Below are positions 3,158 through 6,479 of a DNA stretch of 64,000 bases, one piece after another. Position 1 is the stretch's first letter. Each line of letters begins with the position of its first letter. A model generated the notes under the pieces. That model was given only the letters and a program-made list of their open reading frames with translations, ran no database searches and was not told where the DNA came from. This stretch comes from Williamsia muralis NBRC 105860. GTDB taxonomy: Bacteria; Actinomycetota; Actinomycetes; Mycobacteriales; Mycobacteriaceae. The stretch covers positions 682,001 through 746,000 of the forward strand of contig NZ_BDAP01000001.1 of NCBI RefSeq assembly GCF_001598915.1. The letters run 5' to 3'. The position numbers and the translations under genes are program-made.

Positions 3158-4006
3158 GTGCAGATGAGTCAAGACAACAGCGTGCTCCGTCCCAGTGATC
3201 GTGAACTGGTGCGTGCCACGAGTGCGCGTCTGCGTAAGACAGCCGGGATCCCGGTGGTCTTCGCAGGTCTGCGCGATCGGGACGTCATCCAGGTCACCGA
3301 GTCGGTGGGTCACCAGACTGCTGCCCTGCGAACCATCACGGTCACCCCCGAACGTGGGCTCGGTGGGCTGACCTGGCTGAACAAGCGGGCCAAGATGGTC
3401 CGGGATTACGGGTCGGCCAGCGAGATCACCCATGACTTCGACGACCAGATCCTCGGCGAGGGCATCACCGACCTGGCTGCGGCCCCCATTGTCGTCGACG
3501 GCGCGGTCAGAGGGCTGTTGTACGGCGGCTGGCGCGGTGGCGGAGGACTTCTCGGCGAGCACGCGATGGATGCGCTCTCGCTCGAGGCCGGCCGGATCGG
3601 CACCGAACTGCGGATCCGCGACGAGGTGGACCGCCGGGTCGCCGCGATCGCAGCACGCGAGCAGGCTCAGCGGCCGATCCCCGACTGGATCCACGAGCTC
3701 CGCGACATCGCGACAGGTGCCGAGGATGAGCAGACCCGACGCCGGATCGGCCGACTCGTCGACCAGATCACCAGTGTCGACCGGTCCGGGGTCGAGCCGA
3801 CGATCGCACTCACGCCACGCCAGCTACAGGTGCTGTCGCTGGTGGCGATGGGTTTCGGCAACAGGGTGGTCGCCGATCGACTCGGCCTCACCGTCGACAC
3901 CGTCAAGACCTACCTCCGGGCCGCCATGGTTCGTCTCGGTGCCCGCACCCGTCATGAAGCCGTGGTGAAAGCGCGCGCCGCCGGCCACGTCCTGGAATTG
4001 ATCTGA
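3158..4006 (+). CDS. GAF-domain LuxR-family transcriptional regulator
   Basis: A 282-residue regulator. Residues of about 15-170 look like a GAF-type sensor (repeated beta strands, a GEGITDLAAAPIVVDGAVRGLLYGG core). Residues of about 215-280 are a clear LuxR/FixJ helix-turn-helix (LTPRQLQVLSLVAMGFGNRV, then LTVDTVKTYLRAAMVRLGARTRHEAV). There is no receiver domain, so it is not a classical response regulator. The GTG start was taken from the open frame; ATG two codons later is equally possible. It is divergent from acs, which suggests control of acetate activation, possibly in response to a small molecule bound by the GAF domain. The ligand is unknown. Confidence 0.78.
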   Translation: MQMSQDNSVLRPSDRELVRATSARLRKTAGIPVVFAGLRDRDVIQVTESVGHQTAALRTITVTPERGLGGLTWLNKRAKMVRDYGSASEITHDFDDQILGEGITDLAAAPIVVDGAVRGLLYGGWRGGGGLLGEHAMDALSLEAGRIGTELRIRDEVDRRVAAIAAREQAQRPIPDWIHELRDIATGAEDEQTRRRIGRLVDQITSVDRSGVEPTIALTPRQLQVLSLVAMGFGNRVVADRLGLTVDTVKTYLRAAMVRLGARTRHEAVVKARAAGHVLELI

Positions 4007-4078: not shown

Positions 4079-4825
4079 GTGACCGACCCCTTGGCCCCGA
4101 TACTCGAATTGCCCGGCGTGATCGAGGCAGCCGACCGAGCGCGTGATGCCCTGGCCGCTGCCCACCGGCATCCGGTGAACCTGCGCGGGTGGGAGAAGAC
4201 GGCAACGGAGGCGTCGTGGCGGGCCGGACGGTCGTCCGCTGCCATCGACGGTGGAAGCGTCGATCTGGTGCGCGACGGCGACTTCGATGAGCCCGTGCTC
4301 TCGGGTGCCATGCGGGTGGCCCAGGCGCTCGACGGAGAATCACTTCCGCAGTTCGTGTCGACCTGGACGCGTGCTCCGTTGCAGACGCTGGCGCGACTGC
4401 ACGTTCTCGCCGCGAACGACCTCACCGACGATCCGCAACTGCTGGGCCGTCCCCGCGCGGACCGCGACCTCGGCCAGCGTCTGGCCTTGCTCGCCCAGCT
4501 CATCACCGGCGCGACAAAAGCACCCGCCCCCATCGTGGCGGCGGTGGTGCATGCAGAACTGCTCTCCCTCGAACCCTTCACGTACGCGAACGGGATCGTC
4601 GCACGCGCGGCGTCGCGGCTCGTCTGCACCAGCAGCGGACTCGATCCACACAACCTGGGCGTGCCCGAGGTGACGTGGTTCCAGCGGGTGCGCGAGTACC
4701 GCGACAGTTCGACCGCCTTCGGTTCCGGAGACCCCGACCGTATCCGGGAATGGGTGCTGCTGTGCTGTGATGCTCTCGAAGCCGGTGCCGCAGAGGCGAA
4801 CTCGATTGCCGAAGCCGCGCGATGA
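4079..4825 (+). CDS. Fic-like protein with degenerate catalytic motif (Rv3662c type)
   Basis: A 248-residue, mostly helical protein. Its C-terminal half resembles the Fic fold, but the signature HPFxxGNGRxxR reads EPFTYANGIVAR: the catalytic His is Glu, the first Gly is Ala and the phosphate-binding Arg of GNGR is Ile. Upstream, WRAGRSSAAIDG is reminiscent of the (S/T)xxxE(G/N) inhibitory helix region of Fic proteins but is also altered. AMP transfer by the standard mechanism is therefore unlikely. The same gene position in M. tuberculosis (Rv3662c) holds a conserved protein of unknown function. It could be a pseudoenzyme or have changed chemistry. Confidence 0.6.
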   Translation: MTDPLAPILELPGVIEAADRARDALAAAHRHPVNLRGWEKTATEASWRAGRSSAAIDGGSVDLVRDGDFDEPVLSGAMRVAQALDGESLPQFVSTWTRAPLQTLARLHVLAANDLTDDPQLLGRPRADRDLGQRLALLAQLITGATKAPAPIVAAVVHAELLSLEPFTYANGIVARAASRLVCTSSGLDPHNLGVPEVTWFQRVREYRDSSTAFGSGDPDRIREWVLLCCDALEAGAAEANSIAEAAR

Positions 4826-4833
4826 GCGTTGCC

Positions 4834-4871
4834 GACCTGCTCTGAACGCGCTGACCTGCTCCGAACGCGCT
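4834..4871. repeat. Tandem pair of 19-bp repeats
   Basis: GACCTGCTCTGAACGCGCT is immediately followed by GACCTGCTCCGAACGCGCT: two 19-base units differing at one position, just after the Fic-like stop codon and beside the end of the putative Ms1-like RNA. Confidence 0.85.
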
Positions 4872-5162
4872 GCGGGCGGCGTACCGGTTCGCCTCTGCGT
4901 TCCGATCGCCGCCCGCTAGCACGGATCCGAGTTACCAAGCGTGCTTTGGTGGTTGTGTGGGATGACCTAGGCGTAGTGTTCCGCCGCCGCTTCGAAGCCG
5001 TTCCCACCCAAAGGAACTCACTCGAACTCGACGCCGGATCTCGCAGGCCCGCAACCTGGTGCCTCCCGCGGCGTGCTGCGCGTGGGTGCTCGGTATCCGT
5101 GCTGGGAGTGCGCGGTCAGGAGTCCGTTCCTTCTCTTCCGGCCCGAACTTGGCTTTCCGCGC
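4872..5162 (-). ncRNA. Putative Ms1/MTS2823-type (6S-like) small RNA
   Basis: No protein gene fills this gap between the convergent Fic-like and HAD genes. In mycobacteria the roughly 300-nt RNA Ms1/MTS2823, which binds core RNA polymerase, lies between the homologues of these two genes. On the minus strand a CRP-like site (5185-5200) is followed by a possible -10 (TAGTTA, 5174-5169). Two segments about 160 nt apart (5089-5102 and 4919-4931) are complementary over 13 pairs with a single bulged base, giving a long closing stem around a large internal region. The far end is a perfect 10-bp inverted repeat (4907-4916 with 4872-4881). Predicted length is about 290 nt. Ends and identity are inferred; the pairing is seen directly. 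Confidence 0.55.
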
Positions 5163-5184
5163 TTTCCGTAACTACTTTCTACAC

Positions 5185-5200
5185 CGTGACCGCGGTCACA
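5185..5200. promoter_or_regulatory. CRP/GlxR-like palindrome upstream of the putative Ms1-like RNA
   Basis: CGTGACCGCGGTCACA contains the perfect 14-bp palindrome GTGACCGCGGTCAC, with both half sites GTGA and TCAC spaced as in CRP-family operators. It lies inside a gap between two convergent genes, where no protein-gene promoter is expected. It sits about 10 bases before the proposed -10 of the minus-strand RNA. Confidence 0.55.
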
Positions 5201-5291
5201 TCAAGACCTCGGGCACATCAATTCGAGATTGACATTTCCCGTTGGGCGGAAACGTTTTTCGTGTTTGCGGTGGGCTCAGGTGCGTCGCGCG

Positions 5292-6128
5292 TCAGTGGCG
5301 CTTGCGGGCGAGGATCGAATAGGTGAGGGCGCCGGCGACCACCGCGCCCAAACCGACTGCCGCCGAAGCGGTCACGGTGGGAGACGGTGTGTTGGGCAGG
5401 CGATCGCGGATCGAGATGGGTTTGGTGAACGACAACATCGGCCAGCCGAGAGCGGTGGCCTGCTTGCGCAGCGCACGGTCGGGGTTGATGACGGTGGGAT
5501 GGCCGACCGCCTGCAGCATCGGCAGGTCGGTGATCGAGTCCGAGTAGGCGAAACACTGGGAGAGGTCGTAGCCGACGGATTCGGCGATCTCGTTCATCGC
5601 CGCGGCCTTCTCCTCGCCGTAACAGTAGAACTCGACCGCGCCCGCATACTTGCCGTCGATCACCTTCATCCGGCTGGCCATCGAATAGTCGGCGCCCAGC
5701 ATCTCGCCGATCGGTTCGACGATCTCGGCTCCCGAAGCGGACACGATCACGACGTCGTGACCCCGGGCCTTGTGGCCGGCGATGAGGTCCGCGGCTTCGG
5801 CGAACACCAGGGGGTTGACGATGTCGTGCAGCGTCTCGCGGACGATCGACGACACCTGATCCACGTCCCACCCCGTGCACATCTCGGTGACGTGTTTGCG
5901 CATCCGCTCCACCTGATCGTGGTCGGCGGCCGACAGCAAGAACATGAATTGGGCGTACGACGACTTGAGTACCGAGCGACGGTTGATCAGCCCCTGGTCG
6001 AAGAACGGGCGAGAGAACGCCAGCGAACTCGACTTCGCGATGATGGTCTTGTCGAGGTCGAAGAAGGCGGCGATCCGCGGGCCGGAGGTGGATTCCGGAC
6101 CACCGTCCGCGGGCCAGGAATAAGTCAC
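5292..6128 (-). CDS. HAD-IB family phosphatase (SerB-like) with C-terminal membrane helix
   Basis: A 278-residue hydrolase of the haloacid dehalogenase superfamily, subclass IB (SerB-like). The nucleophile motif is FFDLDKTII (Asp24, Asp26), motif II is the VSASG segment and motif IV is YSDSITDLPML. A hydrophobic stretch near residues 250-272, ending in RKRH, predicts a C-terminal membrane anchor. The GTG start is supported by TACCCT six bases upstream (leaderless). It is the positional equivalent of Rv3661. The substrate is unknown; related proteins act on phosphoserine or lysophospholipids. Confidence 0.82.
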   Translation of the reverse strand: MTYSWPADGGPESTSGPRIAAFFDLDKTIIAKSSSLAFSRPFFDQGLINRRSVLKSSYAQFMFLLSAADHDQVERMRKHVTEMCTGWDVDQVSSIVRETLHDIVNPLVFAEAADLIAGHKARGHDVVIVSASGAEIVEPIGEMLGADYSMASRMKVIDGKYAGAVEFYCYGEEKAAAMNEIAESVGYDLSQCFAYSDSITDLPMLQAVGHPTVINPDRALRKQATALGWPMLSFTKPISIRDRLPNTPSPTVTASAAVGLGAVVAGALTYSILARKRH

Positions 6129-6277: not shown

Positions 6278-6363
6278 CCCGGACCTGATCCGGGGCTTTC
6301 AGCCCGACCCCCCGGGGCTGAACGCGACGACCCTGGCCTCCTCCCCCCCTGGCCGGGGTCGTC
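6278..6363 (+). other. Three consecutive stem-loops in the leader upstream of ssd
   Basis: Hairpin 1 pairs CCCGGA (6278-6283) with TCCGGG (6289-6294). Hairpin 2 pairs TTCAGCCC (6298-6305) with GGGCTGAA (6315-6322). Hairpin 3 pairs GACGACCCTGGCC (6326-6338) with GGCCGGGGTCGTC (6351-6363), 13 pairs including one G-U. A possible -10, TATAGT (6264-6269), lies just before them. The rest of the 6129-6559 gap shows no gene. This could be an attenuator, an RNA-stabilising leader or a small RNA. Confidence 0.5.
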
Positions 6364-6479
6364 CCCATTTCCGGGGTATGTCGGTCATCTGACCCACACG
6401 ATCATTCCCCCGCATTTACCCCTCTGACCTGCTGTTCTGTGTGGCGTGTGGGGCCTGCTCGATCGGCTGACGGATCGGG

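Follow-up and report, generated by a model that had tools for sequence, protein, structure and literature searches.

A CRP-like operator within the predicted promoter of the Ms1-type RNA gene of Williamsia muralis and its relatives

Ms1 of Mycobacterium smegmatis and MTS2823 of M. tuberculosis (Rfam family RF02566) are the closest described counterparts of the RNA gene reported here. Like 6S RNA, Ms1 forms a long hairpin with a central bubble and acts on RNA polymerase. However, 6S RNA binds the holoenzyme with the primary sigma factor, while Ms1 binds the core enzyme (PMC4191392). Ms1 rises roughly 130-fold in stationary phase in M. smegmatis (PMC4191392), and in M. tuberculosis MTS2823 exceeds every other non-rRNA transcript in abundance as early as the exponential phase (PMC3207917). 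MTS2823 was placed between Rv3661 and Rv3662c (PMC3207917), and linkage of Ms1 with 6C RNA has been published for mycobacteria and S. coelicolor (PMC6582537). In the text of PMC4191392 the sigma factor and the regulators of Ms1 were left undecided, and LexA was mentioned at the M. tuberculosis locus. According to a review, Ms1 expression depends in part on elements within the region from −491 to +9 (PMC8628891). Ms1 was also the most affected stationary-phase gene in CrsL/CarD depletion experiments published in 2025 (PMC12709188).

For the cAMP receptor protein CRP of M. tuberculosis, binding near the start was linked to repression and binding farther upstream to activation, and starvation lowered both cAMP and CRP occupancy (PMC4117774). 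Table 2 of that paper contains four sites from −0.5 to +6.5; repression fits three of them but not mkl (−0.5), and no site in the table falls between −0.5 and −44.5. MTS2823, Rv3661 and Rv3662c do not occur in the main text of PMC4117774, nor do CRP, cAMP or an operator occur in the main text of PMC9130861, which deals with Ms1. We found no CRP-Ms1 link in the open-access literature searched, and one may be in print elsewhere.

The window analysed here is a stretch of 64,000 nucleotides from Williamsia muralis NBRC 105860 (NZ_BDAP01000001.1, positions 682,001 to 746,000). As listed in Table 1, its minus strand almost certainly encodes the Williamsia Ms1 RNA, judging from sequence and model comparisons. 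A preliminary description, made from the letters of the window, had identified the gap as an Ms1/MTS2823-type gene, and the RF02566 covariance model, synteny and covariation all agree with it. The covariance-model comparison proposed there gave a match over all 304 model positions, with 129.8 bits and an E value of 1.2e-33, which does not reach the curated Rfam gathering score of 162. All nine genomes of the genus, including the window's own, matched RF02566 and none exceeded the gathering score. In the GTDB family, matches were found in 182 of 201 genomes, 38 of them above 162, so the curated score leaves out most relatives too. Fifteen of the 19 misses belong to one genus (g3, genomes of 2–3 Mb), which is probably Corynebacterium; in Corynebacterium the gap is reported to be too short for Ms1 (PMC9130861). 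Long open reading frames overlap the gap on both strands, which is commonplace in GC-rich DNA.

The Williamsia RNA has the length, start A, closing stem and terminal hairpin of Ms1/MTS2823. The length of about 290 nt predicted earlier was right in being near 300 nt, and the model-based figure is 306 nt. In contrast, its score lies below the cut-off, and the apical part of its central arm has diverged. In one multiple alignment it was 53–59% identical to 14 sequences of genus g28, which we infer to be Mycobacterium because all 14 sampled members exceed the Rfam cut-off. It is a further member of a known, published RNA family. Ms1 has been listed for Rhodococcus, Nocardia, Gordonia, Tsukamurella and Williamsia (PMC9130861, Table 4), and the Williamsia candidates of that linguistic synteny search share both genus and gene neighbourhood with ours. 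The RNA itself therefore adds little, and a version outside Mycobacterium, to which the preliminary description attached value, is not new.

The HAD gene upstream and the convergent gene downstream are shared with Ms1/MTS2823, whose published setting matches the window's neighbours (PMC4191392, PMC9130861, PMC3207917). The earlier placing between homologues of Rv3662c and Rv3661 thus holds, with TIGR01490 upstream and a conserved convergent gene downstream. Neither NCBIfam nor Pfam gave a match for the latter at E 0.001, and it is taken as the putative Rv3662c orthologue by its position. The window also contains a 6C RNA at 6294–6367 on the plus strand (RF01066, 67.3 bits, over the cut-off of 47), and therefore the HAD gene lies between two small RNA genes. 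No 6S family reached its gathering score in the Rfam search of the window.

Table 1. Features of the Ms1 locus in the window (coordinates are window positions)
Feature	Position	Strand	Details
Ms1-type RNA	4864..5169	-	306 nt, start A at 5169; RF02566 1-304
HAD-IB hydrolase (Rv3661 position), upstream flank	5292..6128	-	TIGR01490, 210.1 bits, cut-off 98.3
Conserved convergent gene (Rv3662c position), downstream flank	4079..4825	+	found by tblastn in 65 of 71 loci
-35 element TTGATG	5199..5204	-	predicted from sequence
-10 element TAGAAA	5176..5181	-	17 bp from -35, 6 bases before RNA start
CRP-like operator TGTGACCGCGGTCACG	5185..5200	-	at -16 to -31, centred -23.5, between -35 and -10
Long closing stem, 5' arm	5088..5104	-	pairs with 4917-4932; helix 5: changes on both sides in 8 of 9 pairs, cells paired 87.2%
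Long closing stem, 3' arm	4917..4932	-	pairs with 5088..5104
5' hairpin	5105..5167	-	model pairs; outer helix paired in 50.6% of cells, inner helices in 83.6-97.8%
Terminal hairpin	4872..4916	-	helices 17 and 18: changes on both sides in 14 of 14 pairs; cells paired 90.7% and 86.2%

When the RF02566 structure was mapped onto the window, 80 of the 96 model pairs were standard pairs. The minimum-energy fold was more stable than all of 100 shuffles (z = −3.95). At the place where a 13-pair long stem had been claimed (5089–5102 with 4919–4931), this fold has 9 + 5 pairs with one bulged base; in the Rfam model 5096–5104 pairs with 4917–4925 and 5088–5092 with 4928–4932. The 10-bp terminal hairpin that had been drawn to end near 4872 came close, the model giving 11 contiguous pairs (4906–4916 with 4872–4882). 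No U tract follows this hairpin in the sequence, and a simple scan between 4800 and 5350 found no U-tailed terminator.

Covariation was scored on 67 sequences less than 85% alike, picked from 142 and aligned with MAFFT, which is blind to structure; the structure scored was that of Rfam as mapped onto the window. Cells were paired in 76.1% of cases, compared with 71.2% in shuffles and 34–41% when the partner was slid by 1–3 columns. The covariation score was 0.184, against 0.108 in shuffles and 0.047–0.088 in the slid controls, and none of 500 shuffles reached any of five measures. Changes on both sides were seen in 67 of the 96 model pairs, and in 31 of the 53 pairs of a consensus fold computed from the alignment. 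Compensatory changes, whose absence from the long stem would have refuted the preliminary description, were found in it across these related sequences. The outer 5' helix and helices 10–16 in the apical part of the central arm (29–59% of cells paired) are weakly supported across relatives. Apart from these, the architecture of a long hairpin with a bubble, plus a short hairpin towards either end, is backed by covariation.

The predicted Ms1 promoter in the window is TTGATG-N17-TAGAAA, and its start is likewise predicted. A simple scan for E. coli-type promoters between 4800 and 5350 found none and did not pick up the TAGAAA element. The CRP-like palindrome noticed earlier at 5185–5200 is confirmed, on the minus strand, and is conserved across Ms1 promoters. 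It keeps nine of the ten half-site letters of TGTGA-N6-TCACA around a central hexamer CCGCGG, and it extends across the spacer into the end of the −35 element. It is the sole match of TGTGAN6TCACR in the 64 kb; at least one match arose by chance in 19 of 100 shuffles of the window. Counted on each strand, the 5.5-Mb genome has 27 occurrences of the pattern, at 20 places, and 9 of the reversed control. The palindrome is weak by itself and takes its weight from its position and conservation. Its location inside the core promoter would predict repression, a point absent from the preliminary description. Table 2 of PMC4117774 has no CRP site at this position, so a centre at −23.5 is an extrapolation from precedent.

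The conservation of the operator was examined in 142 upstream regions listed from the 182 genomes matching Ms1, a set that favours higher scores. TTG-N20-TANNA was present in 139 of these 142 listed regions; the three without a 17-bp promoter were dropped, and operator counts are over 139. In fixed register, eight or more of the ten half-site letters are intact in 86 of the 139 listed promoters. Eighty score at least 9, with 47 different central hexamers among them. Among the matches listed, a 9/10 site appears in one or more members of 14 of the 22 genera, a count that ignores shared descent. In the 53 promoters under 8/10 most half-site columns are variable, and TTG and TA are fixed. Six genera with at least two sequences (g10, g13, g18, g19, g23 and g26) have no 9/10 site and retain the promoter, and in g28 six of 14 promoters score 8 or less. 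Of 41 named loci 38 were scanned, and 22 of these score 9 or 10: all 11 from Mycobacterium or Mycolicibacterium, five of the Williamsia group, one Gordonia, two Tsukamurella, Jongsikchunia and two Allokutzneria. Six loci of Pseudonocardiaceae type have an Ms1 match (L055, L060, L062, L070, L074 and L080); five score 9, 9, 7, 6 and 8, and no promoter was found in L062.

We also searched for promoter and operator together. Of the 201 family genomes, 92 contain the exact pattern TTGNTGTGAN6TCACN4TA, at 94 places in all, and none contains the reversed pattern. At least 82 of the 94 places are at Ms1: 66 sit 10–20 nt before an Ms1 match by coordinates, and 16 further places were assigned by sequence, all showing the ACGGA start and the GGAAGAGAAG loop. 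One of the 16, in G092, probably marks an Ms1 missed by the model search. Of the remaining 12 places, the four examined lack the ACGGA and GGAAGAGAAG motifs, and eight are in genus g4, with letters like those of two examined g4 places. In g28 the pattern is present in 62 of 118 genomes, counting its presence anywhere in the genome. Across the order it was found in 25 of 199 genomes. The idea that the operator is wider than the family was dropped, since the pattern occurs in just 2 of 162 same-order genomes outside it; one of these has the letters of Allokutzneria and the other is probably a chance match.

Some further sites and copies were seen in this search. G102 (C1:1277686-1277710) and nine further g4 genomes carry a promoter-like site TTG[AC]TGTGA[CT]GAGTATCACG, which in the two examined, G102 and G040, lies away from Ms1; the Ms1 match of G102 is elsewhere. 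Second Ms1-like RNAs, with 44.8–107 bits, occur in 8 of the 182 matching genomes (L181 4798-5053, L182 4655-4914, L183 4688-4943 and L208–L212). The second copies of L183 and L208–L211 have a common upstream sequence with GCGGGGTAGACC and no CRP-like site, and both copies of G018 show a CRP-like site by eye. Second matches in G115, G120 and G151 (27–29 bits) were dropped as unlikely. A second Ms1 gene has been published for Rhodococcus jostii RHA1, M. nebraskense and M. celatum (PMC9569102). As for LexA as a conserved control of Ms1, a scan with a LexA-like box pattern found a box in only one of the 142 listed upstream regions, each of 150 nt, and this candidate was rejected.

The genome encodes one strong CRP. 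HTH_Crp_2 gave 14 matches at E 0.001, two of them over the curated cut-off; the best, a 224-aa frame, scores 65.1 bits and the next protein 28.8 bits. The 224-aa protein aligns end to end with its closest solved structure, 3h3u, which we take to be M. tuberculosis CRP, and the helix-turn-helix is near-identical. In the window's genome crp and Ms1 share a strand and are separated by about 10 kb. Among 20 genomes tested, the two genes share a contig in 15, always on the same strand and about 9–20 kb apart; in three others they fall on separate contigs, one has no Ms1 match and one had no Ms1 position compared. CRP was found in all 20, with at least 90% identity in 18, including 12 without a 9/10 Ms1 site. 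Tested members of the six genera without a site have CRP of 90–93% identity. As these genera retain both CRP and the promoter, CRP control of Ms1 would be dispensable.

We propose an account which, taken whole, we consider reasonably likely. Ms1 would be transcribed from its own primary-sigma-type promoter, TTGATG-N17-TAGAAA. The RNA would keep sigma-free RNA polymerase core bound as a stationary-phase reserve, as family members in M. smegmatis and S. coelicolor suggest. A CRP dimer with cAMP would bind TGTGACCGCGGTCACG, covering the spacer and the −35 end, and would exclude polymerase, so that Ms1 is repressed while cells grow; the drop of cAMP in starvation would release CRP from the site, and Ms1 would rise. 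Because the operator overlaps the expected polymerase footprint, repression in growth with release in starvation is the simplest reading, and a net repressive effect of CRP seems rather likely. Such a reading fits the stationary-phase rise of Ms1 in M. smegmatis. The abundance of MTS2823 in exponential M. tuberculosis would require a weak or lost site in that species.

Several other explanations were weighed against this account. The gap might yield no expressed RNA and hold a decayed Ms1 copy or a chance structure. The score under the Rfam cut-off and the poorly paired central arm would suit decay; however, Ms1 is kept in every genome of the genus, its covariation is strong and its promoter elements are conserved, which leaves such a reading barely credible. 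The palindrome might also belong to the redox sensor Rex, in which case Ms1 would answer NADH/NAD+ and not cAMP. The Rex consensus TGTGAA-N4-TTCACA has the same spacing as the CRP site. A Rex-type domain is encoded in the genome (PF06971, 60.9 bits), with TGTGAATCGATTCACA about 140 nt before it, which probably shows the form of a Rex site in this genome, so such sites seem to be in use. However, the inner letters A...T are found in none of 63 strict Ms1 operators, nor in the window's CCGCGG, and PF06971 is missing from 3 of 10 genomes (G099, G016 and G134) whose Ms1 promoters score 9–10/10. For these two reasons CRP fits better than Rex, which we think most unlikely, and CRP is probably the protein that would bind TGTGACCGCGGTCACG. 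As a separate observation, TGTGAATCGATTCACA (G000:C2:1080723-1080738) possibly serves Rex autoregulation.

If CRP binds, it might activate the Ms1 promoter or merely tune it. CRP does activate many M. tuberculosis targets, and mkl, with its site at −0.5, is expressed less in the crp mutant (PMC4117774, Table 2). In contrast, the Ms1 operator with its centre at −23.5 overlaps the spacer and the −35 element. Apart from mkl, every gene in that table that loses expression in the mutant and has a site within −200 to +20 carries this site upstream, no closer to the start than −44.5 (PMC4117774); sites near the start go mostly with repression. Activation or tuning is therefore unlikely in our view. 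It is distinctly unlikely, too, that the palindrome is simply inherited promoter sequence bound by no regulatory protein. In favour of inheritance, Ms1 promoters are related by descent, and genera without the site retain −35 and −10. In the six genera without a 9/10 site the inner half-site columns differ by 0.288 and the hexamer by 0.463, which means that an intact site does not account for all of the slowness of these columns. However, in genera mostly with the site, picked for having it and with members that lost it kept in, the within-genus difference is lower still in the inner half-site (0.196), while the hexamer (0.471) changes about as fast as the 20 nt upstream (0.477); the variety of hexamers among the high-scoring sites also speaks against mere inheritance. 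These comparisons indicate that half-sites are conserved where the site is intact, although the contrast between genus groups is moderate.

Under repression by cAMP-CRP, Ms1 would be a direct and old target in this family, its operator conserved in many Ms1 promoters and lost later in several genera; on this reading our judgement is evenly balanced.

The part worth following is the operator's place inside the promoter together with its wide conservation, which points to one specific candidate regulator of Ms1. The genera without the operator offer a natural comparison for CRP control. If the proposal is true, how much polymerase is kept idle is governed by a second messenger: cAMP would set the amount of stored RNA polymerase core through one operator in the promoter of one RNA. 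Carbon and energy state would in this way be linked to global transcription capacity.

Two minor observations concern the surroundings of the locus. At 3158–4006 on the plus strand the window holds a LuxR-type regulator gene that scores 146 bits with a RamA acetate-metabolism model, below the cut-off of 500; this RamA-like gene adjoins the acetate-CoA ligase gene acsA and faces away from it. In record L040 (NZ_JNYV01000002.1), titled Kitasatospora arboriphila NRRL B-24581, the HAD gene and the flanking gene are each 99% identical to those of the window, and this record is probably mislabelled or contaminated.
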